The position numbers were made by a program, and so were the translations under genes. This document shows positions 1 to 18,540 of a DNA stretch of 64,000 nucleotides, in pieces (the stretch's first letter is position 1; the number at the start of each line of letters is the position of its first letter). This stretch comes from Haloterrigena turkmenica DSM 5511 (GTDB lineage Archaea; Halobacteriota; Halobacteria; Halobacteriales; Natrialbaceae): assembly GCF_000025325.1 (NCBI RefSeq), contig NC_013743.1:1178001-1242000 (forward strand), given 5' to 3'. The notes under the pieces were generated by a model that was not told the origin of the DNA, did not search any database, and saw nothing but the letters and a program-made list of their open reading frames with translations.

Positions 1-494
1 GCGGCGCGGTACTCCCGCGAGAGGAGGCGGTTGCCCTTCGCGTAGTCGGCCTCGTTCTCGACGAGCGGATCGAGCAGTCGCGGCATCTGCGAGAGGTCCA
101 TCTGGCCGTCGGCGTCGACGGTCACCGTCGCGTCCACACCGTCGGCGCGCGCGGCGAGATACCCGGTCTTGATCGCCCCGCCGGCGCCGCGGTTCTCGCG
201 GTGTTGGATCGGGACGACCCGTCCGATCGAGTCCCGGACCGACGCCCGTGCGGTGAGCGCGGACGCGCCACCGTCGGTCACGAGCGGCGCGTCGTCGGCC
301 GCGTCGCGTCCCGCGTTCGCGTCGGCGTCCTCGCGGGCCGCCTCGAGGATCTCGTCCCAGGTCCCGTCGGTCGATCGGTCGTCGATCGCGTAGATCCGAT
401 CGACGTAGTCGGGCATCTCGCGGATCACGTCGCCGACGAATCCCTCCTCGTCGTACGCCGGCATCACGACGCCGATTGAGGCTCCGCGGTACAT
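1..494 (-). CDS. Family 2 glycosyltransferase, dolichol-phosphate-sugar synthase-like (C-terminus cut by window edge)
   Basis: Only the first 164 codons are visible, from ATG at 492-494; the rest lies beyond base 1. Visible motifs are VVMPAYDEE near the N-terminus, AIDDRSTDGTWD as the nucleotide-binding loop and VDADGQMD as the DXD metal site, followed by a KGNRLLSREYR segment. This is the GT-A layout of dolichol-phosphate mannosyl/glucosyltransferases, which load a polyprenyl phosphate with sugar on the cytoplasmic face of the membrane. A linker of about 30 residues rich in Ala and Asp (DANAGRDAADDAP) interrupts the usual spacing between the Asp loop and the DXD site. It heads a glycan gene cluster. 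The family is clear; the acceptor and sugar are not. Confidence 0.85.
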   Translation of the reverse strand, partial: MYRGASIGVVMPAYDEEGFVGDVIREMPDYVDRIYAIDDRSTDGTWDEILEAAREDADANAGRDAADDAPLVTDGGASALTARASVRDSIGRVVPIQHRENRGAGGAIKTGYLAARADGVDATVTVDADGQMDLSQMPRLLDPLVENEADYAKGNRLLSREYRA

Positions 495-812
495 CAGCGT
501 CCCTCCGGCGGGGCGGTCAGAGCGGCGTTCCGCGCCGTCGCCGTGCGGTCATCGGCGAATCTGCTCATCCTCGCAGTGCCACCAGGTGGCACGAGCGGTC
601 GTCCGTTCCAGTGGGTCATTACCCGGGTCGACGAACCTGTCGGCCTTTCTTATACAGCTGTTAGGGCTCGAGTCGCACCGATTCGGGTCGCAACGATCCC
701 CGATTCGCGCGTTCCGAATCCGGCGCGATCGACTCGAGTCGCCCGGAATCACCGTCGTTCCCGGCGTTTAGCGACGCGATAATAATGGCTCGACCGTCCG
801 GAGGTGGCAGAA
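495..812. other. Intergenic region between divergent glycosyltransferase genes
   Basis: No gene is supported here. The stretch carries a TATA-like CTTATAC near 657-663 and a GATAATAAT near 777-785. The second lies 25-30 bases before the downstream start and is the likely promoter of the gene at 813. Short open frames here lack family features. Confidence 0.5.
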
Positions 813-1811
813 ATGCCACGAGTCAGCGTCGTGATCCCGACCTACGACAGAGCCGAGACGCTTCCGCGCGCGATCGACAGCGCGCTCGCACAGACGGTCG
901 ACGACCTCGAGGTCGTCGTCGTCGACGACGGTTCGACCGACGAGACGCCGTCCGTGCTGGCCGACTACGAGGACCCTCGGGTCCGACCCGTCGTCCACGC
1001 GACCAACCAGGGGGCCAACGTGGCCCGGAACACCGGTATCGAGCACGCCCGCGGCGAGTACGTCGCCTTCCTCGACTCCGACGACGAGTGGCGCCCTGAG
1101 AAAATCGAGCGGCAACTCGCCGCCCTCGAGGGGCAATCCGACGAGTGGGTCGGCGTCTACTGCGACTCGACCTACGAGCTGTCGGGGACGAACGACCGCC
1201 TCCGCGGGGTCGCCGCGTCCGCCCTCGCGCGGTCGGACGACGAGCCCGTGCGAGAGGGCGGCGAGGAACTGATCGGTCCGATTCTGGCCGACGAGGTGCA
1301 GCCGGGCGCCGGCTCGACCCTGCTCGTCCGGACCGACGTCGCCCGGGAGATCGGCGGTTTCGACGAGGAACTCGATCGGTTTCAGGACCCCGAGTTCTGT
1401 CTACGAGTGCTCGAGGCGGGCAAGCTCGCGTACGTCGACGAACCGCTGGTCGTCCGCGAGGAGACGGGCCAACCGCCGGCGGCCGTCATCCGAAAGGCCA
1501 GCGAGCAGTACCTCTCGATCTACGAGGAGGAGGTCGAACGGTTCGAAGCCGAGGGGTACGAGATCCGCGCCGCCCACCGGCTCGTCGTCGCGAAGGCCTA
1601 CCTCTCTGAGGGCCGTCTCCTCCGAGGGCTGTGGTACCTGCGCGGCGCTGCCGCGTCCACGCGACAGTATCCCGGCCTCTGTTGGGCCGCCGGCAGCGGC
1701 GTTCGACGGCGCCCGTTCCCGATCGTCGCAACGGTCGCGCTCGTCCTCGCCGTCCTCGCCGCGACGGCAGTCGAGCGGACGGCGATCGTCCGTCGCGTCC
1801 TGACTGAGTAG
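813..1811 (+). CDS. Family 2 glycosyltransferase with C-terminal membrane anchor
   Basis: 332 residues. The N-terminal GT-A domain shows VSVVIPTYDRAE, VVVDDGSTDETP and the metal-binding FLDSDDEWRP, typical of GT2 enzymes that transfer a sugar from a nucleotide-sugar donor. A hydrophobic helix near residues 300-320 should anchor it to the inner face of the membrane. ATG 813 is preferred over an in-frame GTG at 804, because a GGAGGTG ribosome site at 799-805 is well spaced for 813 and would overlap the GTG. Neighbours point to surface polysaccharide or N-glycan assembly. The substrate cannot be read from the sequence. Confidence 0.88.
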   Translation: MPRVSVVIPTYDRAETLPRAIDSALAQTVDDLEVVVVDDGSTDETPSVLADYEDPRVRPVVHATNQGANVARNTGIEHARGEYVAFLDSDDEWRPEKIERQLAALEGQSDEWVGVYCDSTYELSGTNDRLRGVAASALARSDDEPVREGGEELIGPILADEVQPGAGSTLLVRTDVAREIGGFDEELDRFQDPEFCLRVLEAGKLAYVDEPLVVREETGQPPAAVIRKASEQYLSIYEEEVERFEAEGYEIRAAHRLVVAKAYLSEGRLLRGLWYLRGAAASTRQYPGLCWAAGSGVRRRPFPIVATVALVLAVLAATAVERTAIVRRVLTE

Positions 1812-1950
1812 CCGTTCAAACCCAAAATATTCTTCTAGAGGGAGTGAATCGCCCGATTTGTACAATTTCTGTTGGTCACATCGTCCGCACTCTGACTGCA
1901 ACTGTCTTGGTGGTTCGATAACTAACAGGAGCCGCGTGGCAGCCTCATCC

Positions 1951-3126
1951 GTGAACGTCAGAACGCTCTACCACACGGCCAGGTCGGTGCAGGGACTCGT
2001 CGGGTCAGAGTACGAGTCGGACGTCTCGCGACCGCTTCGCCGACGCCTCTGGCTCTGGCGGCGCGGCTTCCTGAGCCGCTCCGACGCGGTCTACGATCTC
2101 AATTCAGAGAACTACCGCGACTACGTGAGCGACTACGAGCGGTTCGTGCGCACGAAGCAGATCAACGGGACGTGGTCGGTGGCCCTCTCGAACAAGCTCT
2201 TCTTTCACCGGCTCATGCAGCCGTTCGACGCCGAGCGGATGACCGTCTACGGGCTGCTCCGCGACGGAACCTACCACCCCGTCGACGGTCGACGCGGCCG
2301 CGAGATGGCCGACGGGGGGCCGACGGCCCCGGAGCCGATCGGCGTCGGCGGACCGGCGTCCGAGCCGGCTCGGCCGTCGCCGCGGACGGAGACGAGAAAC
2401 GCCGCCCAGCGAGTCGTCGACCGACTCGAGGCCGAGGGTCGGCTGGTCCTCAAGTGGGTCCACGGCGGCGGCGGGAACAACGTCCTGCTGTGTTCGCGTG
2501 CCGACGACGGCTACCGGGTCGACGGCGACCACTACACCGAAGCCGAGTTCCGATCGCTGGTCGCCGGCCTCGAGGACTATCTCGTCTGCGAGTTCGTCGA
2601 CCAGGGGTCGTTCCCGGCCGCGCTGTACCCGACGACGCCGAACACGATCCGGCTGATCACGATGTACGACGACGTCCTCGACGAACCGTTCGTCGCCGCG
2701 GCGATCCAGCGGATCGGCACGACGGAATCGGCGCCGCTCGATAACTTCACGCAGGGCGGCCTCTCCGCGTCGATCGACCGCGAGACGGGCGAACTCGGCC
2801 AAGGCGCGCAACCCCTCGACGGCGACGGTGATCGTGACGGCGACGACGGCGTCGAGTGGCACTCGGAACACCCTGACACCGGGATGGCGATCGAGGGGAA
2901 GCAGATCCCCGGCTGGCAGCGGATTCGATCGCGAGTCCTCGAGATGGCCGACGCCTGCTCGTACGTCCCGTACGTCGGCTGGGACGTCATCGTGACCGAC
3001 GACGACGGCGGCTTCACCGTCATCGAAGCCAACAGCTACCCCGGCCTCAAATCGATTCAGGTCCACGGGCCCTTACTGACTGACGACCGCGTTCGGCGGT
3101 TCTACGAGCAACACGGCGTTCGGTAG
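1951..3126 (+). CDS. Sugar-transfer-associated ATP-grasp domain protein
   Basis: 391 residues from GTG 1951; an in-frame GTG at 1936 is the alternative. The central LVLKWVHGGGGNNVLLC is a glycine-rich ATP-binding loop. The C-terminal WDVIVTDDDG..VIEANSYPG carries the Glu/Asn metal ligands of an ATP-grasp fold. This matches the ATP-grasp group found in polysaccharide clusters, thought to form an amide or ester bond with an acyl-phosphate intermediate. Residues around 115-150 are a low-complexity Gly/Pro/Arg-rich insert. It lies 139 bases after the GT2 gene on the same strand. The family is fairly certain; the bond it makes is unknown. Confidence 0.8.
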   Translation: MNVRTLYHTARSVQGLVGSEYESDVSRPLRRRLWLWRRGFLSRSDAVYDLNSENYRDYVSDYERFVRTKQINGTWSVALSNKLFFHRLMQPFDAERMTVYGLLRDGTYHPVDGRRGREMADGGPTAPEPIGVGGPASEPARPSPRTETRNAAQRVVDRLEAEGRLVLKWVHGGGGNNVLLCSRADDGYRVDGDHYTEAEFRSLVAGLEDYLVCEFVDQGSFPAALYPTTPNTIRLITMYDDVLDEPFVAAAIQRIGTTESAPLDNFTQGGLSASIDRETGELGQGAQPLDGDGDRDGDDGVEWHSEHPDTGMAIEGKQIPGWQRIRSRVLEMADACSYVPYVGWDVIVTDDDGGFTVIEANSYPGLKSIQVHGPLLTDDRVRRFYEQHGVR

Positions 3127-3279
3127 CGGCGTCGAGCGCGGACGCCAACCACCTCGAGCCGAACCGGACGGATTCGATCTCTACAACCGTTTCACGACGG
3201 TTTCGAGCGAAGAAAAAGAATGTCTGCTGACGTTATTCTCGCGATAGTAAACACGTCTACTAGTGAAGCGAGCGGTGGA

Positions 3280-4482
3280 ATGCAGCGGAATGCGCTTTCA
3301 CGACGATCGGTACTGTCACTCGCGGGTGCCTGTGCGATCGCAGGCACCGGCGCGACTGCAGTCGGTGGGGCACAGGCGGACGGAACGTCTCGGGAGTCCT
3401 TTACGATCCGCGAGGGAACGGCCGAGGAGACGACGGTCTACGTCACGAGTGCGGACGCCGACGGCCCCACGGCCGTCGTCGTCGGCGGCGTCCACGGCAA
3501 CGAGGTGGGGGGCTATACGGCCGCGAGCGCGATCGCCGACTGGGAGATCGGTGCCGGAACCCTCGTCACCATCCCCGAAGCGAACGCGGTCGCGATCGAA
3601 CGCGGGACGCGAACTGACGACGACGGCATCGACTTGAACCGGCAGTTCCCGGAGGGGCGCGAGCCGGAGACCGACCTCGCCCGGGCGCTCTGGAGCGTCA
3701 TCGTCGAGTACGATCCGGACATCGTAATCGACCTCCACGAGTCGACGGGTATCTACGCGAACGATCCCGTCGACGGCGTCGGACAGGCGATCTTCCACTC
3801 CGACGGCGAGGCAGCCGCGGCCGCAGCCGATGCGGCCGAGTACGTCACCCGCAACTACGTCGACGACCGGTCGCTCGCCTTCCAGACCGGGCCGTTCTCC
3901 AGCTCCAACACCGACCCGAGAGGGTTGCTCGTCCACAAGGCCGCCCGCGACCTCGGCACCGACGCGTTCCTCGCGGAGACGCTCTCGACCGACGTTCCCC
4001 TCGAGACGCGCGTCCAGTGGCACTCGGCGATCGTCGAGCGGTTGCTGACCGACGCACTTCGACTCGAGGCGACCGACGGCGACGCCGAGTCCGACGATCC
4101 GGACGAGGATACCGACGAGAACGAGACCGACGACGGCGACGAGACGAACGAGGAGGCCGAGACTGACGACGCAGACGAGTCCGGCGACGAAGACGAGGCG
4201 GCGGAAGCGCCCGTCGCGTCGATCGAAACCTGTCCCGGAAACGGCGCCGCGATGGCCCTCGAGTCCGGACAGCAGGTCGAGCTCGACGCGTCGGGATCGT
4301 ACGTCCAGGGCGGCGAGATCATCCGCTACGAGTGGGACGTCGGTCAGACGGCGCAGTTCGACGAGACCGGTGAGACGATCACGGTGACCGTCGGCGCGAA
4401 CGCCCGCGACACGGTCGTGCTGCGCGTGACCAGCGACGACGGCGAGACCGACACGGAATCGATCGCGCTCTCGACGGACTGA
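3280..4482 (+). CDS. Secreted succinylglutamate desuccinylase/aspartoacylase-like (M14) protein with PKD-like domain
   Basis: About 400 residues from ATG 3280. The N-terminus has a Tat-type signal (LSRRSVLSLAGACA). The zinc-carboxypeptidase-like domain shows VHGNEVGG (His and Glu ligands), DLNRQFP (substrate Arg) and VIDLHES (third ligand His), the pattern of aspartoacylase/succinylglutamate desuccinylase. These hydrolyse N-acyl amide bonds. An acidic linker of Asp/Glu/Thr follows, then a beta-rich C-terminal domain with YEWDVG that looks PKD-like. Family relatives are usually cytoplasmic, so export with a sugar- or protein-binding domain is notable. It may trim amide-linked groups from the surface glycan; that role is inferred from the neighbourhood. 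Confidence 0.82.
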   Translation: MQRNALSRRSVLSLAGACAIAGTGATAVGGAQADGTSRESFTIREGTAEETTVYVTSADADGPTAVVVGGVHGNEVGGYTAASAIADWEIGAGTLVTIPEANAVAIERGTRTDDDGIDLNRQFPEGREPETDLARALWSVIVEYDPDIVIDLHESTGIYANDPVDGVGQAIFHSDGEAAAAAADAAEYVTRNYVDDRSLAFQTGPFSSSNTDPRGLLVHKAARDLGTDAFLAETLSTDVPLETRVQWHSAIVERLLTDALRLEATDGDAESDDPDEDTDENETDDGDETNEEAETDDADESGDEDEAAEAPVASIETCPGNGAAMALESGQQVELDASGSYVQGGEIIRYEWDVGQTAQFDETGETITVTVGANARDTVVLRVTSDDGETDTESIALSTD

Positions 4483-4579
4483 TCGGTCCCGGATTCCGCG
4501 TTCACTGCGGGATTCTTCTCCGGTCAGGGCGAATGGAACCGTTCGTCACCACAAGGATGGATCAACGACTGACGCAGGC

Positions 4580-5914
4580 TCAGTAGTGCTGTTCGGTCCG
4601 GAGCTTCCAGAGACCGTCGAACGTGATGACCTCGACGTCGGCGTTGTCGATGTGCTTGAGCAGCTTCGCGTAGTCGGTTTCGGACATCGTGTTCTGTTCG
4701 GAGAACGCGTGGAAGTTCAGAACCGTACACTGGCGGTGCTGGGCGGCGAGATTGACGCACCGTTTCGCGATGTCGAGATCGTGGCCGATCGTCCGCGGTA
4801 ACGCCAGCGGATCGAAGCCGTAGACGCTGGTCGTGTTAATGTTACCGGACTGGTTGAACCCACCGCAGTAGTGGTAGTCGGTCGCGTGCTTGAGGCTCGC
4901 CTTATCGTAGCTGTTGTGTGGGTAGACGATGTAGTCTGCGCCCTCGAACTCCTTGTTGATGTACCACTGCTTGTCGTGCTTGAGGCGGTTCCGGATCCGC
5001 TCCTCGTCGTCGAGTTCGTGGATGGGATCGTGGGTCCCGTGGACGACGATCTGGTCGCCAGCGTCCTGCCGTTCCTGAAGCTCCGCAACCGTCATGCTGT
5101 CGCCGTCGTTTCGTTCGACCCAGCGCGGCACCGGAGCCTGAACGGCCGGGAACCCGTACTCGTCGTGCAGCGGCGCGGCCGTCTCGTAATAGTCGCGGGT
5201 GCCGTCGTCCCAGGTCAGCATGACGTACCCCTTATCCGGCTTGCCGTGGGTCCGCATGTCGTCGATCCAGACCTCGGCCTGGTCCATGGTGTGCAAAACC
5301 TGAATCTCGAGGCGATCCAGGGCGTCGAGCGAGGGGTCGTAGTCGCTCTGTGAGAAGACGCCCGGACTCGAGCGGAACCAGGCGACGTCCGGGCTCCGGC
5401 AGGTGATCTCCCGCAGCGAGTACGTCTTCGCGCTGCCGAACTGGTCGACCAGCTGCAGGTTGATCGTGATGTTCTGTGGAGTCGTCGTCCGGATCGCGAA
5501 CGAGAGGTCCGTATCGGTGAAGTCCTTGTCCGACACATCCAGTCGGGCGACGATATTTTCCTGGCCGTTCGACTCCAGTTTGAAGCTCTGGTCGCCGTTG
5601 AAGACGACGTCCTGGTCGGCGCTTCCCGATCCCCGGGTGACCTCCCACTCGGAGAGATCGCTGAAGTCGTCGAACGACTCGCCGGGCTGGCGGTACTGTT
5701 CGCGGCTATTGTACTCGGTCTCGAGCGACGGAACGCCGTCGGCCAGCGCCGCCGCCTGTCCGGTCGACTCGTTGTCCGTCTCTTCGTTATCCGAATCGTC
5801 GTCCGATCCGCCGAGGACCGAATTGAGCTGATCGGTACAGCCCGCGAGGCCGGCGGCCGCGGCTGCGCTCGACAGTGCGAGAACTCGTCGGCGGGTCGGT
5901 CGCTGCTGTGACAT
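4580..5914 (-). CDS. Lipoprotein with polysaccharide deacetylase (NodB-like) domain
   Basis: 444 residues. The N-terminus combines an Arg-rich Tat-like segment (PTRRRVLALSS) with a lipobox ending LAGC, so it should be exported and lipid-anchored. Residues about 60-220 look like a beta-sandwich binding region. The catalytic part follows from MLTWDDGTRDYYE (the metal-binding Asp pair) and VVHGTHDPIH. The canonical NodB second motif is His-Ser/Thr-x-x-His; the spacing here is His-x-x-His, so the metal site may be modified. Such enzymes remove N- or O-acetyl groups from polysaccharide. It is convergent with the M14-type deacylase gene, and both would act outside the membrane. Confidence 0.82.
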   Translation of the reverse strand: MSQQRPTRRRVLALSSAAAAAGLAGCTDQLNSVLGGSDDDSDNEETDNESTGQAAALADGVPSLETEYNSREQYRQPGESFDDFSDLSEWEVTRGSGSADQDVVFNGDQSFKLESNGQENIVARLDVSDKDFTDTDLSFAIRTTTPQNITINLQLVDQFGSAKTYSLREITCRSPDVAWFRSSPGVFSQSDYDPSLDALDRLEIQVLHTMDQAEVWIDDMRTHGKPDKGYVMLTWDDGTRDYYETAAPLHDEYGFPAVQAPVPRWVERNDGDSMTVAELQERQDAGDQIVVHGTHDPIHELDDEERIRNRLKHDKQWYINKEFEGADYIVYPHNSYDKASLKHATDYHYCGGFNQSGNINTTSVYGFDPLALPRTIGHDLDIAKRCVNLAAQHRQCTVLNFHAFSEQNTMSETDYAKLLKHIDNADVEVITFDGLWKLRTEQHY

Positions 5915-6163
5915 TGTCGATCCGACGGTACCGACAGTCAGCCCATTATTATAGATCCGATAGGCCGAACTCGTCGGTCGCTCAGACCGGCCCTATACGG
6001 GCGTTTCAGACCTTAACAATGGCATAGTAATTGTCGTCACGGTAAGAGTAGATGAGAGCCGCGTGCGCGATCGGAGGCAGCCGGACGAGCGAACCGCCGG
6101 TCGGTCGTCGATCGGTCGACTCGGCGTCGTCCCCTCGATCGCGCGTCGCGACGGTGGTCTTCG

Positions 6164-7855
6164 ATGAATAGGGAACTCTTCGGCGTATTCGGTGACAGAG
6201 AGACGTTCGAGCGACACAGAGCCAGCGACGAGTTCGATCGGATACTGACGGGATCGTCCATCACCGTCGGTATCAGAGACGACGCGCTCGGCGCGACCGG
6301 CTGGACCGCCAGCTACGCGGACGGCGACGCCCGATGTGTCGTCTGGGGTGAAGCGTACGTCCCGGGCGACGAGTCAAACGCCGCGCGCTGGCTGCTCGAG
6401 CGCTACGAGCAAGTGGGCCGCGACGCCTTGGACTTGCTCAACGGCTCGTATCTGGCCCTCGTCGACGCCGGCACGGGCAATGCGTTCGTCGCGACGGATC
6501 CCGTCCGGTCCCGCGAGTGCTTCTACACTGACGCGTCGGGAACTCGCGTCTTCGGGACCGACGCCGCCGAAGTCGGGCGAACGGTTCCCGAGCCGACGGT
6601 TAACCGAGACGGTGTCCTCGAATTCCTCCACCTCGGCGTGGCCCTCGGCGAGAAGACCGCCGTCTCGGAACTGCATCGACTACCGATCGACAGCGTGCTC
6701 GAGGCCGACTCGGTCGACGCCCTGAAGCGGTTCGTCTACCGTCCGGAGTCGTTCGACTACGTCGCCGAACTCGCCGAACGCCTCGAACGGGCGTTTCGGC
6801 GGCGCTCGGCGCTGTCCGGAACCAAGGGCCTCCTCCTGTCGGCGGGCTACGACTCGCGGATCCTCCTCACGGGGATCACCGATATCAAGCGGAGTTACAC
6901 CGTCGGCTCGCCCAGCGCGCGGGAAGTCCAGGTGGCGGGTCGCCTCGCCGACCAGTACGGAGCGACTCACACGGCGTTTCCGCCGGACGAACGGTATCTC
7001 CGCCCCGACGAATCGAAGGTCCGCTACTCGCAGGGGATCAAGGAATCGCTGCACATCCACCACGCCGGCTACGCCGACGAGATGGCCGTCGATACGATGT
7101 ATCACGGACTACTCTGTGATACGTTCCTCCGCGGCCACTTCACCGCCGAGAAGACCGTCGACGTCCTCGACAAGCAAATTCCGACCGGGCGACTCGAATC
7201 CGATCCCGATCCCGTCGAGGAACTGCTCGAGACCTTCGGTTACAGCCGGGACGCCAGTCGCGACCTCGCCGAACGAACGTCGTTCGGCGTCGATCCGGAG
7301 ACGTTCGTCAGGGACGCGATCGCCGACGAACTCGACGCGCGGTCGTCGCGCGCGGACACGGTACAGAACACGCTCACCTGCGTCGGGATCTCTAACCAGC
7401 CTTCGATGCCGTTTCACACGCACCTGGCCGACCAGTTCGTGACGTCGTTTCCCGCCATCGACCGCGAACTGCTCGACTGGCACCTCCGAGCGCCGCCGGA
7501 ACACCGCACGACGGAGACGTTCCTCGAGGCCTGTACGCGGATCGACGACGACATCCTGCGACACAGGCCGCCGGACCGGCCACACGACGAGACGATCCTC
7601 AACGAGGTCGAGCGCTTCGTCCGCCGGAAGACGCCGCTTCTCGAGTCGTTCGAGCCGCCGTGGCCGGATCGCCGGACGCTGTTCGATCGCTACGAGTTCG
7701 ACCGGCGGTATCTGAACGACCTCGAGCACGTCCACGATCTGCCGGTCAGACACAAGCTGCGGCTCGTCGATCTCCGAACGTGGCTCGAGTGCTGGACCGC
7801 GCCGTCCGAGGTATCGCTCCCGTGGCTCGCCCCGCCGGAGTTCGCGACCACGTAA
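6164..7855 (+). CDS. Asparagine synthetase-like protein lacking the glutaminase cysteine
   Basis: 563 residues. The N-terminal third resembles the Ntn glutamine-amidotransferase domain of AsnB (GVFGDRETF; LLNGSYLALVDAG), but it begins MNRELFG with no Cys at position 2. Glutamine hydrolysis is therefore unlikely. The C-terminal synthetase domain keeps the ATP-pyrophosphatase loop as LLLSAGYDS at residues 223-231 (SGGLDS in classic AsnB). Family members activate a carboxylate with ATP and form an amide; those in glycan clusters probably modify uronic acids or linked amino acids. The nitrogen source would be ammonia or an amine, which is inference. ATG 6164 is the first start, with A+T-rich sequence upstream. 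Confidence 0.78.
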   Translation: MNRELFGVFGDRETFERHRASDEFDRILTGSSITVGIRDDALGATGWTASYADGDARCVVWGEAYVPGDESNAARWLLERYEQVGRDALDLLNGSYLALVDAGTGNAFVATDPVRSRECFYTDASGTRVFGTDAAEVGRTVPEPTVNRDGVLEFLHLGVALGEKTAVSELHRLPIDSVLEADSVDALKRFVYRPESFDYVAELAERLERAFRRRSALSGTKGLLLSAGYDSRILLTGITDIKRSYTVGSPSAREVQVAGRLADQYGATHTAFPPDERYLRPDESKVRYSQGIKESLHIHHAGYADEMAVDTMYHGLLCDTFLRGHFTAEKTVDVLDKQIPTGRLESDPDPVEELLETFGYSRDASRDLAERTSFGVDPETFVRDAIADELDARSSRADTVQNTLTCVGISNQPSMPFHTHLADQFVTSFPAIDRELLDWHLRAPPEHRTTETFLEACTRIDDDILRHRPPDRPHDETILNEVERFVRRKTPLLESFEPPWPDRRTLFDRYEFDRRYLNDLEHVHDLPVRHKLRLVDLRTWLECWTAPSEVSLPWLAPPEFATT

Positions 7856-7966
7856 CCGTTGGCGCCGATTTCGGCTGCGGTATCGATCACTTTCGACGAT
7901 CTAAACGGTTGTTTCTACTCGTTTAGGCCGACGACAAATCGTTTGCCCAGTTCAACCGTAACAATA

Positions 7967-7976
7967 CTTATATACC
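7967..7976 (+). promoter_or_regulatory. TATA box of leaderless gene at 7997
   Basis: CTTATATACC, centred 26 bases before the ATG, places the transcript start at or next to the start codon. A purine-rich element lies just upstream. Confidence 0.65.
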
Positions 7977-7996
7977 ACGCAAGATTACCGCGGAAT

Positions 7997-8500
7997 ATGC
8001 GTCTGACGCCGTCTTGGTTGTTCGCGACACCGTCGGAGCCGTCCGAAGACGGCCCCGCCAACGCCGAGGCCGAGACGGTTTCGGGTGTCACCATCTACCG
8101 GGATCCATCAACCGACTCATCGACCGCCGATTCCGCGGCCGAATTCGTCCCGGACTCCAATACCGAGCTGTTGTCCGTTCTGGACGGGATGGAGACGCCC
8201 GTCACCGTCGACGAAGTCACCGACGAACTGATCCATCCGGCTCGGCCCCCAGTGGAAACGTGGGCAGCCGTTCACGAACAACTCCACCAGTATCGCCTTC
8301 CGGAACTCGACGCAACGGGCCACGTCGAGTTCGACGCGGAACAGGGACTCGTCGACCGCCGAACAGTCCGATCGGACGCCGCCAGTAGGAACGGCTCGAG
8401 CGGGCTGGGACTCTGGAGACTCGTTCGACTCGCGGGGCTCGCAGTACTTGGGACGTCGATGCTGGCGATCGCGCTCGTCGCGGTCGCACTGCTTGTCTGA
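7997..8500 (+). CDS. DUF7344-like winged-helix protein with C-terminal membrane helix
   Basis: 167 residues from ATG 7997, chosen because of the TATA box 26 bases upstream. The middle part (ELLSVLDGMETPVTVDEVTDEL, then VHEQLHQYRLPELDATGHVEF) aligns by eye with the haloarchaeal DUF7344 winged-helix domain, though shorter and more divergent than the two other copies in the window. The last 25 residues form one hydrophobic helix. It is probably a membrane-tethered regulator of the glycan genes. It is convergent with the DUF7344 gene at 8548-9135. Confidence 0.65.
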   Translation: MRLTPSWLFATPSEPSEDGPANAEAETVSGVTIYRDPSTDSSTADSAAEFVPDSNTELLSVLDGMETPVTVDEVTDELIHPARPPVETWAAVHEQLHQYRLPELDATGHVEFDAEQGLVDRRTVRSDAASRNGSSGLGLWRLVRLAGLAVLGTSMLAIALVAVALLV

Positions 8501-8547: not shown

Positions 8548-9135
8548 TCAATCAAGGAGCCGTTTGATCGTCGATACCGTAAACAGCAGCAGGATACAGG
8601 CGCTCAGCGCGATTCCAGAGAGGAACGTCGTGAACGGCAGTTCGAGTACCGCGCCGAGCAGCAGCGCGAATCCGAGGACCGTCGAGCCGACATAGTAATC
8701 GTCCAGCCCCGCGTCAGACTCGTCCTCGTCGCTCGAGTCCGTCTCCGGAGCGTCCTGCAGGTACTGATCGACCATATCCGCGAGCGGTTGCCGTTCGACG
8801 ATGCCGCGATTCTTCTGATAGTCGATGAGTCCCGCTTCGTCGAGCTTCGAGAGGTGGGACTGGTAGAGCGGAATGTAGACGCGCTGGCGTTGTTTCGACG
8901 TGAGCTCCTCGACGGTCGTATCGTGTTCCCACGCCGCGACCTGTTCGGCGATATCCCGCATACGCACGGGCTCAGTGGTGCCACGAAGGTACCTGAGAAC
9001 CAGCCGACGGCGTTCGTTTTGCAGGAGATGGAAGATATCGTCTTTGGAGAGCGACGCCTCGTCAGCGGGCCGCTCGTCTGCATCGGCCGTCTCTTCCTCA
9101 GCATTTCCTTCGGAGCTGATATGTGCTGCGTTCAT
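8548..9135 (-). CDS. DUF7344 winged-helix transcriptional regulator with two C-terminal membrane helices
   Basis: 195 residues. Residues about 30-125 form the winged-helix domain: DIFHLLQNERRRLVLRYL, MRDIAEQVAAWE and the hallmark RQRVYIPLYQSHLSKLDEAGLIDY. Two hydrophobic helices close the protein (residues about 145-190). The arrangement suggests a DNA-binding head tethered to the membrane. Its close relative at 53879 shares the whole VYIPLYQSHL block. The start at 9135 is supported by a TATA box at 9165-9171. The target genes are not known; the adjacent glycan locus is the obvious candidate. Confidence 0.85.
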   Translation of the reverse strand: MNAAHISSEGNAEEETADADERPADEASLSKDDIFHLLQNERRRLVLRYLRGTTEPVRMRDIAEQVAAWEHDTTVEELTSKQRQRVYIPLYQSHLSKLDEAGLIDYQKNRGIVERQPLADMVDQYLQDAPETDSSDEDESDAGLDDYYVGSTVLGFALLLGAVLELPFTTFLSGIALSACILLLFTVSTIKRLLD

Positions 9136-9525: not shown

Positions 9526-10518
9526 ATGAGCGACAGTCAATGGTGGTTCCTCGATTTGGCGGCGGTGATCGCGTTTACCGGCGCCCTCACATTCGGCATC
9601 GTTTCCGGAATCGACGGCGTGATACGAACCGCGATAGCACTCCCGATGGTTCTCTGTCTTCCCGGGTATGCGTTCGTCTCGATCCTGTTTCCGTCAGAAC
9701 CGACCGACGAGTACCAGTCGTTCGATACACTGAAAACCGGACTCGAGACGCCGCGTCTGGTGAGCGGTGGACTCGAGTCGGTCGAACGGTTCGTCCTGTC
9801 GGTCGTCTTTAGTATCGCCCTCGTTCCGGCGGTCACCCTTTTCGCGTCCGTTACCCCTCGGGGTATCACTGCGGAAACGGTGCTCCTCGGGCTTGCGTCG
9901 CTGACCGTCGTGCTGTCGCTGCTCGCGATCGCGTCTCGCTACCGGTGTCCGGCGGAGCGACGGTTCGCACCATCGGTATCTGTGGGGTCGCTATTCTTCT
10001 CCCGGGAGCGACCGAACGTCTACGAGCGACTCAATCCGCGACCGTACAACGTCGCGATCGCCGTCGGGCTGGTGGTGCTGCTCGCGAGCGCCGGGTTCGC
10101 GGCCACCAACCCGCCACAGGGTGACGGCTTCACTGAGCTTTCGGTCGAAACCGAGAACGTCACGGGCGAGACCGACACGATGTACAACTCGACGTACACC
10201 GCCGGCCAGGCCGAAGACCTGCAGGTGACGATCACGAACCAGGAACACGCCGAACGCGACTACACGACGGTCGTCCTGCTCGAACGAGTCGAACAGGGGG
10301 ACGGCGACGAGGCGAACGTCACGGAGCGCAACGAACTCGCCCGGGCGTCTGTGACGGTCGCCGACGGCGAGACGCGCAAGCAGTCACTCGAGATCACGCC
10401 GACGATGTCCGGCGACGATCTTCGGATCACGGTGTTGCTCTACCAGGGGGAGGCGCCGTCGGAGCCAGCGGCCGAGGACGCCTACCGAACGATGCATCTT
10501 CCGGTCGTGGTCGAATAG
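9526..10518 (+). CDS. DUF1616 membrane protein
   Basis: 330 residues. Two hydrophobic helices occupy residues about 10-55, with PMVLCLPGYAFVSILFP typical of DUF1616. Two more lie near 85-135 and one near 170-190. The remaining C-terminal part is predicted extracellular, with NVT and NST glycosylation sequons and a beta-rich domain. In haloarchaea DUF1616 proteins often sit in surface-glycan or S-layer gene groups, but no activity is established that I know of. The start follows a TATA-like element at 9491. Confidence 0.8.
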   Translation: MSDSQWWFLDLAAVIAFTGALTFGIVSGIDGVIRTAIALPMVLCLPGYAFVSILFPSEPTDEYQSFDTLKTGLETPRLVSGGLESVERFVLSVVFSIALVPAVTLFASVTPRGITAETVLLGLASLTVVLSLLAIASRYRCPAERRFAPSVSVGSLFFSRERPNVYERLNPRPYNVAIAVGLVVLLASAGFAATNPPQGDGFTELSVETENVTGETDTMYNSTYTAGQAEDLQVTITNQEHAERDYTTVVLLERVEQGDGDEANVTERNELARASVTVADGETRKQSLEITPTMSGDDLRITVLLYQGEAPSEPAAEDAYRTMHLPVVVE

Positions 10519-11531: not shown

Positions 11532-13526
11532 CTACTCGGTGGCCGGCGAGGGCGTACACATCGTTACGTCGCCGTTCGTGTACACCGTGGCCTGGTTCGG
11601 GCCACAGAGCCGGTCCGCAGTGGCCTGCTCGATCCGGCCCGCTCCGTCGGCGTTAGCGAAGTAGACCGCCTCGTTCGCGGCGGCCGTCCGATAGACCACG
11701 TAGTCGTGGTCGGCGGCCCCGCCGTCCGGGACCGTCGCGGTGTCCGTCGACGGATAGGCGCCGGTCCGGCCGAACAGCGTCTGATACGGATGGTCGGTGT
11801 ACAGCCGCTGGTCTGGTCGGATCTCGCTGCCGTCGGGTGAACCGGTCATCTCGCCGATCGATCCGACTGCGGCCAGCTCCGACTCCTCGTAGGCGAGTTG
11901 TTCGTGGTGTTCCTCGAAGACCGGATTGTCGATGTTGCTCTCCGAGGCCACGATCATCGCGCCCGGGTAGACGAGCGTGAACAGCAGGAGGACGACGACG
12001 ACCAGCGCGGGCGCGAGCCCCCGATCGAGCGTTCGCAGTCCGATCGCACCGAGGATCGCCATCGGCGCGTAGAGGAACGCGAACCAGCGGTTCGGGATGA
12101 ACGTGTGGATCCCGAACATCGGGAACCCCATGACGAACACCAGCATGAACGCCGCCGCGAGCAGCAGCGTGAACACCGACTGCTCGGCCCGGCGCCGGTG
12201 GACGATGTACAGGCAGCCGACGAACGTCGCCCCGAGCAGGAAGAGAAAGCCCAGCTCTTCGACGTAGGGGACGACTTGGTCGAGCAGCGTCGTCACCGCC
12301 TCTGCGGCCCCGGCCTCCTCGCCACCGCTCGAACCGCTCGCGATGTTGAGGAAGCCGGCGCTCTCCTCGACGGTCTGGCGGAAGTAGCTCAGCACGGTCG
12401 CGAGGAACGAGTTCTGGCGGTACGGCGTCAGCGACCAGACGAAGATGGTCAGCCCGACGTTGAAGACGACGAGGCCGACGAGGTTGACCGGCTTCTTCGT
12501 CCGGAACACGCTCGAGTCGAGTCGCGTCAGCCCGAGCGGGCCGATCTCGAAGACCATCTGGGCGACGAACGCCGCGAGCAGCAACACGAGCATGATGAAT
12601 GTCGACACCTGGTGGGTGAGGATCACGGCGACGCTCGAGAGGAGCAACAGCACGAAGTCCCGGGTCGTGTACTCGATGCGCATCACCCGGAGCAACGCGT
12701 ACAGCATCGCGAGGAAGAAGACCAGCCCCATACTCGTCGGGATGAGGTGGAGCCCCCACATCGACACGTGACTGGCGAGCGCGTACACCGCCGCCGCCAG
12801 CGTCGCCCACCGCTTCGAGACGAGCAGGTTCCCCCCGGCGTAGACGAGCAGGACCGAGATCGGCATCACGACGCCGAGCGTGAGGTACAGCGCGGAGCGC
12901 AGCGACACGTCGAACAGCATCGACGAAGCGGTGACCAGCAGGTGGTAGAACGGCGAGGCGTAGTGCTTATCGTGGGAGATCGCGCCGACGCGCCCCTCCG
13001 TCACGATCTGTTCGGTCAGCCCCATGTGCGTCCAGACGTCGATCCCGATGAACCCAGGCGTCGCGTAGAGCGCGGTCCCGCGGAAGACGAGCGCGAAGAG
13101 GACGACTTGCAGCAACAACAGTCGGGCGTTGAAGTCCCGGTCGCTCGCGAAGCAGATCTGGCCGACCACGAGGGCCCCGACGACGCTCGCGAGGACGAAA
13201 AACGGGACCGTTCGAGCGCCCTCGAGGACCGTCAGGACGACCATCGCCGCGAGCCCGAGGAGGACGACCGTCGGGAGCGACATCGTTACCTTCGACGGGA
13301 GCGTCAGGCGGGCGTCGTCGGTCGTCTGCTGTCGTTGATACAGATAGACGAGGTACAGGATACACGCCGTCCCGAGGACCACTGGGACGGTGTTGAGATA
13401 GACCTGCGACGCGAAGAATCGCAAGGGGAACAACACCAGTGCGATCAGGAGTCCACCGATCGCCGCGACGGTGTCGAGTCGAAACGGTCGAAGCTCCGAG
13501 AGCCGCCCGACCGGATTACGTCCCAT
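11532..13526 (-). CDS. Polytopic membrane protein, probable GT-C-type glycosyltransferase
   Basis: 664 residues with roughly 12-14 hydrophobic helices from residue 18 to about 530, then a soluble C-terminal domain of about 130 residues. The segment GIDVWTHMGL (161-170), in what would be an external loop, carries the acidic residue expected of GT-C enzymes. These use polyprenyl-phosphate sugars on the outer face. It is the last gene of a minus-strand operon, overlapping the GT4 gene by 11 bases, so it may act late in glycan assembly or transfer. A flippase or polymerase role is possible, since GT-C membership rests on layout rather than a strict motif. Confidence 0.72.
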   Translation of the reverse strand: MGRNPVGRLSELRPFRLDTVAAIGGLLIALVLFPLRFFASQVYLNTVPVVLGTACILYLVYLYQRQQTTDDARLTLPSKVTMSLPTVVLLGLAAMVVLTVLEGARTVPFFVLASVVGALVVGQICFASDRDFNARLLLLQVVLFALVFRGTALYATPGFIGIDVWTHMGLTEQIVTEGRVGAISHDKHYASPFYHLLVTASSMLFDVSLRSALYLTLGVVMPISVLLVYAGGNLLVSKRWATLAAAVYALASHVSMWGLHLIPTSMGLVFFLAMLYALLRVMRIEYTTRDFVLLLLSSVAVILTHQVSTFIMLVLLLAAFVAQMVFEIGPLGLTRLDSSVFRTKKPVNLVGLVVFNVGLTIFVWSLTPYRQNSFLATVLSYFRQTVEESAGFLNIASGSSGGEEAGAAEAVTTLLDQVVPYVEELGFLFLLGATFVGCLYIVHRRRAEQSVFTLLLAAAFMLVFVMGFPMFGIHTFIPNRWFAFLYAPMAILGAIGLRTLDRGLAPALVVVVLLLFTLVYPGAMIVASESNIDNPVFEEHHEQLAYEESELAAVGSIGEMTGSPDGSEIRPDQRLYTDHPYQTLFGRTGAYPSTDTATVPDGGAADHDYVVYRTAAANEAVYFANADGAGRIEQATADRLCGPNQATVYTNGDVTMCTPSPATE

Positions 13527-14475
13527 GGCCCACCCCCGTAGGCTGCCCCGAGCGGTCGGGGCGCTCGAGGACGCGTCGGTACACTTCGTGGAGGCGGTCT
13601 CCCAGCGCCTCGAGGCGCAGTCCGTCGATGACGTCGCGGCCGTCGGACCGCCCGCGAACGGCGGCGACCCGCTCGAGGCCGGCGATCAGGTCGTCGTCGT
13701 CGTCGCTGACGACGCAGGCGGTTACATCGCCGATCGTCTCGCGGACGAAACCGACGTCGGTCGAGACGATCGGCAGGTTACACGCGGCAGCCTCTTTGAC
13801 GACCATCGGTCCGCTCTCGCGTTTCGACGTGACGAGGAGGACGTCGCTGGCGTTCATGTAGTAGGGAATCTCTTCGTAGTCGACGCCACAGACCGGACGT
13901 AACTCGAGGTCGGCGTCGGCCCGTTCGACGAGTCGGCGCGCCCGCGGGAAGTCCTTGACCGCGCGCTCGGTGTCGTACGGGAAGAGCGCGATCGGTCGGT
14001 CGGTCTCCCAGCCGACGTGTTCTCGGGCCTCTACCTGGGGAATCGGCCTGAACTGCCCGGTGTCGACGCCGAAGGGGATCACGTGGTGGTCGGTCTCGAG
14101 CGCCTCGGACATGGGCTGACTCGGAACGACCGTCGCGTCGGCCGCGCGGGCCGCACGTCGACTGAGCCACCGGAGCCACGAGTGGTCGCTCATCAGGTCC
14201 GTGCCCCAGAGACTCACCACGACGGGCCGAGTCGGCTGGGCGAATGCGAACGGCGTCGTGAGCCCGTAGTTCGCGTGGATCAGATCGTACTCGCCCGAGC
14301 GGATCTCCGAGAGGACGGCCGGATAGAACCGGGCGTAGTCCGCCGGCGATCGGCCGCCGGCGTCGTCCGCTCCGGGGACGGTACAGACCGTGCAGTCGAC
14401 GCCGCGCTCCTCGAGGACCGATACCTGGTGGTCGAAAAACGGCCGCGGTGAGGTGACCAATTGGAGTACGTTCAT
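13516..14475 (-). CDS. Family 4 glycosyltransferase
   Basis: 319 residues from ATG 14475, whose first bases overlap the stop of the upstream gene (ATGA, 14472-14475). The N-terminal domain shows NVLQLVTSPRPFFDHQVSVL, and the middle has LIHANYGLTTPFAFA and VVSLWGTDLM. The C-terminal nucleotide-sugar domain has YYMNASDVLLVTSKRESGPMVVKEAAACNLPIVSTDVG, i.e. the ESGP/E-x7-E GT-B retaining signature. It should act at the cytoplasmic face on a lipid-linked glycan. The translational coupling to DUF354 and the nucleotide-sugar dehydrogenase argues for one pathway. Confidence 0.87.
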   Translation of the reverse strand: MNVLQLVTSPRPFFDHQVSVLEERGVDCTVCTVPGADDAGGRSPADYARFYPAVLSEIRSGEYDLIHANYGLTTPFAFAQPTRPVVVSLWGTDLMSDHSWLRWLSRRAARAADATVVPSQPMSEALETDHHVIPFGVDTGQFRPIPQVEAREHVGWETDRPIALFPYDTERAVKDFPRARRLVERADADLELRPVCGVDYEEIPYYMNASDVLLVTSKRESGPMVVKEAAACNLPIVSTDVGFVRETIGDVTACVVSDDDDDLIAGLERVAAVRGRSDGRDVIDGLRLEALGDRLHEVYRRVLERPDRSGQPTGVGHGT

Positions 14476-15581
14476 GGTTCGGTCGGATTCGTCGTGGCGG
14501 TCGAGCGATCCGGTTCGGGCGTTCGCGCGTGCGTTTCTAGCTGTTCGACGACGAGGTCGGTCACGTCGATCCGTTCCGACAGCAACTGCTGATGGCGTTG
14601 CGTCCACGTTTCGGACGGCTCCTCGAGGACCGACACGGCCCGCTCGAGTCCGCGGACGTGTCGCCGTTCGCCGGTGTACTCGAACAGGAGACCGTACTCC
14701 GCGTCGAGCTCCGTCGTGTACCCCAGCGAGAGCGGGTTGACGTAGACCGACGGCGTGCCGAGGACCGCGGCTTCCGCTGCGGTCGTCGCGCCCTCGCTCA
14801 GGACGATATCGGCGTGCGCGAGCAGGTCGTGGAGTCGCTCGGGCGCCGTCTCGAAGGCGTAGCCCGCGAGCTCCGCGGGCGGTTCGCCCTCGGCCGAGAG
14901 CAGGACCTCGACGCCGGCGTCCTCGAGCCGGTCGACGACCTCGCGGGGGTCGTCGAACCCGCCGTGGCCGACGTCGTGGGAGGCTTCCCAGCTACTGAGT
15001 CGAACGACGGCGAATCGGTCGTCCGGCGAGAGCCCGACCGACTCGAGGACGGTCGGATCCGGCTCGAATCGGTCGGGGTGGAGGTAGGCGAGTTCGTGGT
15101 AGCCCGGATAGCGTACCTGTTTCGAACCGATCTCCCCCCGATAGCACGACGGCGTGCAGATCACGTCCGCGAACGGGTAGGCGAGCTTCGTGATGAGCGT
15201 CGCGTGTTCGGTGTCGTAAAAGACGACGCTCGTCGTCCGCAACGCTGCGGCGACGTGGGCGGCGGCGACGCCGCCGATCGCCGTGATGACGTCCGGATCG
15301 ATCCGACGGGCCCGGGCCAGCAGCTTCGCCTCGTAGGTCGCCTGAACTGCGGCCAGCGAGACCAGCGAGTCGGACGCGCCGGCGAGCACCTCGTGGTCGA
15401 TGTCGTAGGCCTCGAGGAGGTCGATCGCCACGTCGCTCTCGCGGGCGAAGACGTGGACCTCGTGGCCGCGGGACCGAAGCTCCGCGATGGGGTGGCGAAA
15501 GAAGTGGACGTGACCCGGATGCTGGATCGTCACGACGACTCGCTTCGTTCCCGTCGAGGTCGGGTGGGAGCGTGCCGTCAT
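14472..15581 (-). CDS. DUF354 protein, UDP-GlcNAc 2-epimerase/GT-B-like
   Basis: 369 residues. The start TIQHPGHVHFFRHPIAELRSRGHEV and the ITAIGGVAAAHVAAALRTTSVVFYDTEHA segment are typical of archaeal DUF354 proteins. The C-terminal half has IVLSEGATTAAEAAVLGTPS, the GT-B nucleotide-binding region shared with non-hydrolysing epimerases. DUF354 members are usually found beside nucleotide-sugar enzymes and may be epimerases or transferases; the exact reaction is unsettled. The gene overlaps both its upstream and downstream partners by four bases, so the three are translationally coupled. Confidence 0.83.
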   Translation of the reverse strand: MTARSHPTSTGTKRVVVTIQHPGHVHFFRHPIAELRSRGHEVHVFARESDVAIDLLEAYDIDHEVLAGASDSLVSLAAVQATYEAKLLARARRIDPDVITAIGGVAAAHVAAALRTTSVVFYDTEHATLITKLAYPFADVICTPSCYRGEIGSKQVRYPGYHELAYLHPDRFEPDPTVLESVGLSPDDRFAVVRLSSWEASHDVGHGGFDDPREVVDRLEDAGVEVLLSAEGEPPAELAGYAFETAPERLHDLLAHADIVLSEGATTAAEAAVLGTPSVYVNPLSLGYTTELDAEYGLLFEYTGERRHVRGLERAVSVLEEPSETWTQRHQQLLSERIDVTDLVVEQLETHARTPEPDRSTATTNPTEP

Positions 15582-16963
15582 AACCGTCGGTAGACGAACC
15601 CCGCTTCGCAGGCCGCGTCTTCGTCGAACGTTCCGGTCACGTCGACCAGCGCCGGGTCCTCGGCGAGTTCGGAGGCTACCGCCTCGAGATCGAGTTGCTC
15701 GAACTCCGCGTGGGGTGTCGCGACCACGACGGCGTCGAATCCCTCGAACGAGAGGCGTTCTTGGACGTCCAGTTCGAACGCGTCTTCGACCGTCTCGTCG
15801 TCCGCGAACGGATCGAAGCCCGCGATGTCGATATCGTACTCCGCGAGGCGCTCGACGACGTCCGCGACCTTCGAGCTCCGGATGTCGCCGACGCCGGACT
15901 TGTACGACAGTCCAAGAACGAGGACGCGACTGTCTCGAAGCGTCTTGTGGCAGTTGTTCAGCGCCTTGATCGTCAGCTCGGCGACGTGGTCGGGGACCGA
16001 CTCGTTGACCGTTCGACTCGTGCGCACGAGTTCGGGCTCGAACCCTTCGCGAGCCGATCGATGGGCCAGGAAGTACGGGTCGACCGGAATGCAGTGACCG
16101 CCGACCAGCCCCGGCCGATAGTCGTGGAAGTTCCACTTCGTGCCCGCGGCCTCGAGGACCGCCTGGGTGTCGACGTCCATCCGCTCTAGGGCCATCGAGA
16201 GCTCGTTAACGAAGGCGATGTTGAGGTCTCGCTGGGTGTTCTCGACGACCTTGCTGGCCTCGGCGACCTCGATCGACGGCGCGCGGTGGACGCCCGCGTC
16301 GACGACCGACTCGTAGAGGGCCGCCACGTCCTCGAGGACCTTCTCGTCCTGGGCGCCGACGACCTTGACGACGTCCGCGAGACCGTGTTCCTCGTCGCCG
16401 GGCGTCGCGCGCTCCGGCGAGTAGCCGACGAAGAACCCCTCGCCCGCGGTGAGATCCGAGGCGTCCTCGAGTGCAGGAACGAGAACCTCGCGCGTCGTCC
16501 CCGGGTAGACAGTCGACTCGAGGATCACCGTCGTCCCGGGTTTCATCTTCGAGCCGACGGTGGTCGCGGCGCTCTCGACGTAGTTCAGGTCCGGCCGGTC
16601 GTCCTCGTCGATGGGCGTCGGGACGGCGATGATGACGTAATCCGCGTCACCGATCTGGCTGGCATCGGTCGTGTAGGAGATATCGTCGTTCTGAACCGCC
16701 TCGTCCGAAAGGTCGCCGGTCGTATCGACGCCGGACTGCAGCCGGTCGACCGTCGACTCGTCGACGTCGTAGCCGATAACGCGGTAGTCCGACTGCGCGA
16801 AACCGACCGCGAGCGGAAGCCCGACGTAGCCGAGGCCGACGACGCAGATCGTCGCTGTCTGGCCGGACTGTTCGTCGGCGTGTTCCTCGCTGTCCGACTG
16901 GAAGGCGTACTCGCTGTGCCGTTCGTCCGCTCGGTTCTTCGTGTCGCTCAGTGTCGTAGTCAT
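15578..16963 (-). CDS. UDP/GDP-sugar dehydrogenase (UDP-N-acetylhexosamine or UDP-glucose 6-dehydrogenase family)
   Basis: 461 residues. An acidic, non-conserved N-terminus of about 35 residues precedes the NAD-binding VVGLGYVGLP (41-50). STVYPGTT and the catalytic region GLVGGHCIPVDP, with its active Cys near residue 290, identify the family that oxidises C6 of a nucleotide sugar to a uronate in two NAD-dependent steps. The resemblance is to the WecC/VipA group, so an N-acetylmannosaminuronate or N-acetylgalactosaminuronate product is likely but not certain. First gene of a four-gene operon running down to 11532. Confidence 0.87.
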   Translation of the reverse strand: MTTTLSDTKNRADERHSEYAFQSDSEEHADEQSGQTATICVVGLGYVGLPLAVGFAQSDYRVIGYDVDESTVDRLQSGVDTTGDLSDEAVQNDDISYTTDASQIGDADYVIIAVPTPIDEDDRPDLNYVESAATTVGSKMKPGTTVILESTVYPGTTREVLVPALEDASDLTAGEGFFVGYSPERATPGDEEHGLADVVKVVGAQDEKVLEDVAALYESVVDAGVHRAPSIEVAEASKVVENTQRDLNIAFVNELSMALERMDVDTQAVLEAAGTKWNFHDYRPGLVGGHCIPVDPYFLAHRSAREGFEPELVRTSRTVNESVPDHVAELTIKALNNCHKTLRDSRVLVLGLSYKSGVGDIRSSKVADVVERLAEYDIDIAGFDPFADDETVEDAFELDVQERLSFEGFDAVVVATPHAEFEQLDLEAVASELAEDPALVDVTGTFDEDAACEAGFVYRRL

Positions 16964-17222: not shown

Positions 17223-17954
17223 ATGTTCCGATACGGTCGACGAGATTCCACTGACGTTCCAACGTCGACAGGCCACCGTCGACCGTCACAGAACCGAACA
17301 CCCATGGTCTCACTGCCCCAGATCGGAGCTTTCGTCCCGCTCGCGTCGATGCACGCACCAGTTCGGATCGATGCGATCCGCACGCCGGAGCACGGACTCG
17401 ACACGCGTGCGATCGTCTCGACTCTCGTCGGCGATAGCGATGTGCTCTCGTCCGGGACGTCACTCCTGGGGCGGACGTCGGCCCTAGAAATGGCCCTGAT
17501 CACGGTGCTGTTCCTGCTGGTCAGTGGCCTCGTTGCGATTCGCGTCGCCGAGGGGTTGTCTGACCGAGACGTCAGCCTCCCCACGCTTCAGTCGCGACCA
17601 GCGATCGCAGACGGGTCGTCAGAATCGGACCAGCGGCGAGGAACGGACCGCTCGCCAACCGACGATCACCAGTCGTTCGATCGGTATATCGCACCTGACA
17701 CACCATCCGTACTGCTGAGCGACGAGGGGGAGGTCGTCCGCCTGCTCGTCGCCAACGACGGTCGGCTCCGACAGCACCGGATCGCCGACGAAACTGACTG
17801 GTCGAAGTCGAAGGTCAGTCGACTCTGCTCCCAGCTCGACGCCGACGGGATCATCGAGAAAGTGTCGGTCGGACGAGAGAACGTTATTACCCTGTCCGAT
17901 CCGGCGATCGACGACTCGACCGAGACGGACGACGTCGAGAACCCTGTGGCATAG
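17223..17954 (+). CDS. Membrane-anchored winged-helix regulator
   Basis: 243 residues from ATG 17223; ATG 17304 is an alternative. A TATA-like CTTATAC at 17188-17194 fits the longer form. Its N-terminal half contains one hydrophobic helix (ALEMALITVLFLLVSGLVAI). The C-terminal domain (EVVRLLVANDGRLRQHRIADETDWSKSKVSRLCSQLDADGIIEKV) is a clear winged helix of the MarR/IclR-like kind common in haloarchaea. The membrane helix ahead of the DNA-binding domain suggests signal sensing at the membrane. It is divergent from the nucleotide-sugar dehydrogenase operon, a plausible target. Confidence 0.78.
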   Translation: MFRYGRRDSTDVPTSTGHRRPSQNRTPMVSLPQIGAFVPLASMHAPVRIDAIRTPEHGLDTRAIVSTLVGDSDVLSSGTSLLGRTSALEMALITVLFLLVSGLVAIRVAEGLSDRDVSLPTLQSRPAIADGSSESDQRRGTDRSPTDDHQSFDRYIAPDTPSVLLSDEGEVVRLLVANDGRLRQHRIADETDWSKSKVSRLCSQLDADGIIEKVSVGRENVITLSDPAIDDSTETDDVENPVA

Positions 17955-18540
17955 TCGTTCCCACGGCGCTCACCGCTCCCGAACCCGTAGGGAAAACCGG
18001 GTGGGCTCAGACTGTCCCACCGACTGCTGTTCTGCGCATTGTTCGACCTTGAGCGGCTGAGCTGACGATTATCACCCTGATAAGCGGTCCGACCGTGATC
18101 GAGACGGCCGATTGGTTTTGCTCGCGGCGTCGGTTGAACCGCTCACGTTCGCGGATCGATCGGGCCTTTGTTTGGATCCGAACTCGTCATCTGAAAGCGA
18201 ATAATCGAACGAATGACGAAATCCGACTGCCATTTGATTCCAATACGGCGACTATTTCAACAACTGAAACGGAATTCGGCCATATACAACCGATAAGCGG
18301 TATCTTATTCGTGGTATAGTAATGGGCCGTACGGACGTTGGAGCGAGCAGTGACCCGGTCCGCCGGCGGCACGGACGGACCCGGGTGATAGCAAACAATG
18401 ACACGCACTCCGACCCTCCAGACTGCTGGCTCGAATCGCGTCACGACGACCGCCCGAACGACGGCCCGATTCGCGCTTCGACGGCCGTCCGACCGCAGGA
18501 CGCGGCGTCAGACGCCCGCTCGAGCGGAGGTGAACGGCTG
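17955..18540. other. Long 5' region of glmS
   Basis: No separate gene is supported. A+T-rich sequence at 18200-18320 includes ATATAC at 18282-18287 and TATAG at 18315-18319, likely promoter elements. A transcript starting near 18310 would have a leader of about 230 bases before glmS. The leader is open in the glmS frame from ATG 18322, but using that start would bury the catalytic N-terminal Cys of GlmS, so it is not taken as coding. Confidence 0.5.
18526..18533 (+). promoter_or_regulatory. Ribosome binding site of glmS
   Basis: GGAGGTGA, seven bases before ATG 18541. This decides the start in favour of the form with Cys at position 2 over the long in-frame extension. Confidence 0.7.

Follow-up and report, generated by a model that had tools for sequence, protein, structure and literature searches.

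A predicted surface-polysaccharide locus of the Natrialbaceae pairs an AsnB-like protein with a Tat-signal deacetylase

A Methanococcus glycan contains a threonine-amide uronate, and a Halococcus polymer contains glycyl-glucosamine; a literature search on Methanococcus AglU returned nothing usable. A described precedent is bacterial. The pathway to the linking sugar of Porphyromonas gingivalis combines the uronamide enzyme WbpS with a CE4 deacetylase, and it also includes an amino-acyl transferase (PMC7468200). Among haloarchaea, AepG, from the acidic exopolysaccharide genes of Haloarcula hispanica, is a dolichol-phosphate glucuronosyltransferase (PMC9943897). The exopolysaccharide of Haloterrigena turkmenica is reported to contain glucose, glucosamine, glucuronic acid, galactose and galactosamine, with uronic acid (PMC6950075), a composition that fits amino sugars and uronates; a literature search for a glycan structure with amide groups from this organism found none. 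Archaeal exopolysaccharide biosynthesis is poorly known, and the locus described here, from H. turkmenica DSM 5511, offers a defined and widely conserved gene set with named, uncharacterised enzymes. The window, meaning the whole stretch of 64,000 nucleotides that was analysed (G000:C1:1178001-1242000), comes from a haloarchaeal genome of 5.44 Mb. Pfam domain calls were judged against curated cut-offs.

Gene content and conservation of the locus

The original prediction named six genes within positions 1-7855, and all were found at the place and in the order given, as long open reading frames with codon bias: two GT2 glycosyltransferases, an ATP-grasp protein (ATPgrasp_ST), a Tat-signal M14 protein of AstE/AspA type, a NodB protein with Tat signal and lipobox, and an AsnB-like protein. 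The first, GT2a (1-494, minus strand), is the 5' part of a dolichol-phosphate-sugar-synthase-like GT2 that is cut by the window edge and continues to its left, the complete gene lying at 17439-18494 of locus L009; it is AglJ-like by NCBIfam, at a score below cut-off, and directly follows UGD in other haloarchaeal families. GT2b (813-1811, plus strand; PF00535, Glycos_transf_2, E 2e-38) is conserved next to AsnB and NodB. The remaining four are the optional ATP-grasp gene (1951-3126, plus strand), for which a start near 1951 is more likely than one at 1858, the optional M14 gene (3280-4482, plus strand), NodB1 (4580-5914, minus strand) and the AsnB-like gene (6164-7855, plus strand). A second NodB gene lies between the two GT2 genes in most relatives, including Haloterrigena salina, the nearest named one (AsnB 92%), and is absent here (495-812) and in genome G027. 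Upstream of the locus, at 10381-10692 of L009, is a short GT2-like fragment, perhaps a gene remnant.

Beyond the AsnB-like gene are a small DUF7344-related protein (7859-8500, plus strand), conserved in part of the loci, and three proteins recognized by domain match and synteny: a DUF7344 winged-helix protein that is a candidate regulator (8548-9135, minus strand), a DUF1616 membrane protein (9526-10518, plus strand) and a GT4 glycosyltransferase (13516-14475, minus strand). A GT-C/PMT-like membrane protein (11532-13526, minus strand) is conserved and has a weak PMT_2 match below cut-off, and a DUF354 (GT-B-like) protein (14472-15581, minus strand) is conserved as well. A uronate-forming dehydrogenase and glmS had been noted nearby, and both are present: a UDP-sugar 6-dehydrogenase (15578-16963, minus strand), whose closest named model is the UDP-GlcNAc dehydrogenase TviB, below cut-off, and glmS, glucosamine-6-phosphate synthase (18541-20346, plus strand).

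An AsnB ortholog occurs in 84 of the 125 genomes of the family, the Natrialbaceae, in 86 copies. NodB lies no more than 13 kb from 78 of these copies, nearly always as the immediate divergent neighbor, and the pair sits within a fixed locus of about 20 kb together with Wzx, GT2s, GT-C, GT4, DUF354 and the UDP-sugar dehydrogenase. Most of the 41 mapped loci share a common order: phosphodiesterase, Tat beta-helix protein, Wzx, GT2a, second NodB, GT2b, then optionally ATP-grasp and optionally M14, then NodB, AsnB, DUF7344, DUF1616, GT-C, GT4, DUF354 and the dehydrogenase. Recurrence of the pair across the family with the same flanks, the outcome of the haloarchaeal neighborhood comparison that had been proposed, rules out a chance cluster of this genome only, and the description of the region as a surface-glycan locus is borne out by glycosyltransferases, flippase, UDP-sugar dehydrogenase and glmS in fixed order. 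Judged from its genes, it is a predicted chromosomal surface-polysaccharide locus of the Natrialbaceae.

The proposed run of four enzymes of amide chemistry stands as to contiguity but not as a single operon, since NodB diverges from AsnB and converges on M14. M14 is found near 55 of the 86 AsnB copies and ATP-grasp near 28; both accompany 21 copies, M14 only 34 and ATP-grasp only 7, and their presence shows no association (Fisher p 0.16 over the 86 copies, kinship ignored). Because these two optional genes come and go independently of each other, the idea that the four enzymes form one obligatory pathway was set aside; ATP-grasp and M14 may be strain-level decorations, with no mutual dependence between steps.

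The divergent spacer between NodB and AsnB (5915-6163, 249 bp) contains two AT-rich, promoter-like blocks that are invariant or nearly so in 12 aligned loci, at about 5943-5952 for NodB and about 6013-6034 for AsnB. The pattern CATARTAAT is rare in the window. The presence of one conserved block near each gene suggests that NodB and AsnB are under joint control.

The AsnB-like and ATP-grasp proteins

The AsnB-like protein scores 18.9 bits against PF00733, below the cut-off of 21, and only weakly against TIGR01536 (41.4 bits, cut-off 267). A profile built on 48 relatives identifies TsnB9, beta-lactam synthetase, AsnB and CarA as related, and Foldseek searches with an AlphaFold model from a 48-sequence alignment (pLDDT 91.8) return AsnB-like entries for the same four at E values from 1e-15 to 1e-11; conclusions use this model only, an earlier one based on 18 close orthologs having reached a pLDDT of just 45.6. 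Profile and predicted structure show an AsnB fold with a PPi-loop synthetase domain, as in a probable AMP-forming ligase. Almost every family member retains the PPi loop S[AG]GYDS(R), and every one has the Mg-binding Asp. None of the aligned members has the glutaminase Cys2; at position 2 they carry Asn, Lys, Arg or other residues. Nor, by sequence alignment rather than superposition, are equivalents kept of Glu348 and Lys449, which in the numbering we assume are catalytic residues of AsnB: the first position holds Leu or another residue (Leu316), the second Pro or Arg within an RPPDRP motif. With these positions changed, catalysis would have to proceed differently, if it occurs at all, and a protein lacking Cys2 and the aligned catalytic Glu and Lys does not qualify as WbpS or as a standard asparagine synthetase. 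Use of ATP is thus likely, and use of glutamine is not. Since Cys2 and, by alignment, both catalytic residues are missing, it is from the fold and ATP site only that we infer its role, which is probably to activate a uronate carboxyl and form an amide.

A simpler glycan without amino acids could be served by an ammonia-dependent synthetase, equivalent to WbpS, that amidates a UDP-uronate, with NodB and M14 only remodeling or recycling the finished polymer. The TviB-like dehydrogenase and glmS agree with such a scheme, as does the precedent of WbpS and WbqG (PMC7468200), but no NCBIfam amidotransferase model matched except TIGR01536, weakly, and Cys2 and the aligned Glu348 and Lys449 are missing; we consider this simpler scheme improbable.

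In all, 121 of 391 genomes of the class have an AsnB-like gene; outside the family, identity is mostly 42-57%, and up to 62%. Eleven of 20 loci from outside the family (L115-L118, L122, L124-L128 and L131) have glmS immediately upstream on the same strand, with gaps of 4-160 bp, and glmS is also directly upstream of the AsnB-like gene in L087 and L109. A second, diverse haloarchaeal group of AsnB-like proteins (L132-L151) is sometimes encoded near Wzx or GT2-like genes, and those members that were aligned lack Cys2. It is possible, though we hold it doubtful, that AsnB-like proteins constitute a pan-haloarchaeal class of glutaminase-free, AMP-forming ligases that couple uronate carboxyls to amines through an altered active site, such that acidic archaeal surface polysaccharides would acquire amide-linked substituents, which NodB and M14 enzymes would then edit extracellularly.

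The ATP-grasp protein matches PF14397 at 106.9 bits (cut-off 31.4), and its GGGG loop, D345, E359 and N361 are invariant among aligned orthologs. In a phylogenetic tree, the copies at the glycan locus form one clade and lie beside glycosyltransferases. An ATP-grasp gene is the neighbor of AsnB in another, distant lineage as well (G006/G001), where the G006 copy has a separate long branch of unsure placement. A profile search found no credible solved relative, and a literature search on sugar-transfer-associated ATP-grasp proteins found nothing usable. Paralogs adjoin dnaJ in 7 of the 12 other loci fetched; these seven (L152, L153, L155, L156, L158, L160 and L162) are full-length and lie in grpE-dnaK-dnaJ loci. 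With its closest paralogs mostly in such surroundings, outside glycan loci, ATP-grasp has the least certain glycan role of all the enzymes. As to the expectation that it and the AsnB-like protein would form amides inside the cell, the ATP-site residues of both are kept; the lost Cys2, Glu and Lys of the AsnB-like protein, and these dnaJ-linked paralogs, weigh against it.

The same observations could be read differently, with a conserved locus for an acidic exopolysaccharide or an S-layer-associated glycan bearing NodB, M14 and ATP-grasp as independent cargo in a variable stretch, the AsnB-like protein being a degenerate or regulatory ATP-binding protein and no amide pathway being shared. The separate comings and goings of M14 and ATP-grasp (in a test that ignores kinship), the paralogs at other loci, and an AsnB-like protein stripped of glutaminase and synthetase residues would all be expected. 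An AsnB-like protein that keeps its ATP site, its identity across families and a tight link to glmS would nevertheless be unusual if dead, and of the 56 high-scoring M14 matches that were counted, 55 lie near AsnB; we therefore consider independent cargo rather unlikely.

Putatively exported hydrolases and a viral relative

The M14 protein matches AstE_AspA_cat (PF24827, 41.6 bits, cut-off 25), carries a PKD domain at its C-terminus, and has every residue of the AstE/AspA set: H72, E75, N120, R121, H153 and E233 are invariant and comprise the HxxE...H zinc ligands, the NR pair and the catalytic Glu. NodB1, an N-terminal galactose-binding-like domain joined to a NodB/CE4 deacetylase domain, matches Polysacc_deac_1 (PF01522, 44.7 bits, cut-off 23.1). 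Ortholog alignment finds D236, D237, H292, H295, H402 and C26 invariant; the WDDG motif and His402 are thus kept, but with HGTH spacing in place of the usual HxxxH. Tat-type signals had been claimed for both hydrolases, and the twin-arginine motifs are indeed invariant in both sets of orthologs, predicting export. As every aligned NodB1 ortholog also has an AGC lipobox, NodB1 looks like a Tat lipoprotein.

Over its full length and in both domains, NodB1 matches the turret head protein of the virus HFTV1 (8qpg_TC, E 8e-23), to which, as gp31 (MG550112, 15170-16273), it is 24% identical. The viral protein has a galactose-binding-like domain and a deacetylase-like domain with a catalytic zinc, was proposed by its authors to act on host surface glycans, and had no homolog found in other haloarchaeal viruses (PMC12494034). 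The layout of gp31 (PDB 8qpg) is that of NodB1, although gp31 is a viral capsid protein. The homology suggests that HFTV1 took up a host coat-editing enzyme of which NodB1 is the cellular homolog, and offers a way to test whether editing of the host coat is tied to attachment of the virus. Resemblance to a turret protein might also mean that NodB and M14 target foreign glycans or viruses in place of the cell's own polymer. The strict synteny with biosynthesis genes, the divergent promoter region common to NodB and AsnB, and the absence of any match to PADLOC defence models make this highly improbable.

A tentative pathway and its relation to known systems

The overall model that we tentatively favor, at somewhat less than an even chance, is synthesis of an acidic amino-sugar polysaccharide with amide formation by the AsnB-like protein and external editing by NodB and M14. 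The product of the TviB-like dehydrogenase would be a UDP-amino-uronate such as UDP-GlcNAcA, which GT2a would load on dolichol phosphate; an acidic amino-sugar polymer fits this dehydrogenase and glmS. Using ATP, the AsnB-like enzyme would adenylate the uronate carboxyl and couple it to ammonia or a different amine, so that the sugar bears either a uronamide or some substituent in amide linkage; in some species the ATP-grasp ligase might, still within the cell, link one more carboxylate to an amine. The units would leave through Wzx. On the outer side, NodB, as a lipoprotein anchored in the membrane, would N-deacetylate the polymer and, where present, secreted M14 would trim an amide-linked acyl or acidic group. 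With NodB on the outside and ATP-grasp within the cell, the ATP-grasp substrate cannot be a product of NodB. Amide chemistry at this locus is plausible and, if the bonds are made, would mean that uronamides or aminoacylated sugars can arise by a second route.

Known systems share parts of this design. The Haloarcula hispanica genes (PMC9943897) likewise serve a haloarchaeal acidic exopolysaccharide, and AepG and GT2a belong to one general type of GT2; the Haloarcula set differs in that the portion of that account available mentions no asparagine synthetase-like or deacetylase gene. With E. coli AsnB, beta-lactam synthetase, CarA and TsnB9, the AsnB-like protein shares the whole fold and the PPi loop, while Cys2 and the aligned catalytic Glu and Lys are missing and identity in structural matches is 11-16%.

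The Wbp/Vim system of Porphyromonas gingivalis type IX secretion (WbpA-E, WbpS, VimE and VimA; PMC7468200) has, like this locus, a uronate dehydrogenase, an AsnB relative, a CE4 deacetylase and a possible sugar-aminoacylating enzyme. The genes of our locus that were scanned include none for the 3-amino steps of WbpB, WbpD and WbpE; its glycosyltransferases and Wzx are archaeal, its NodB is a predicted exported Tat lipoprotein, and an ATP-grasp protein is found in place of the N-acyltransferase-like VimA. WbpS carries a glutaminase Cys that the AsnB-like protein lacks. By analogy, the logic proposed for the AsnB-like protein resembles that of the bacterial Wbp/Vim uronamide pathway, apparently carried out with partly other parts.
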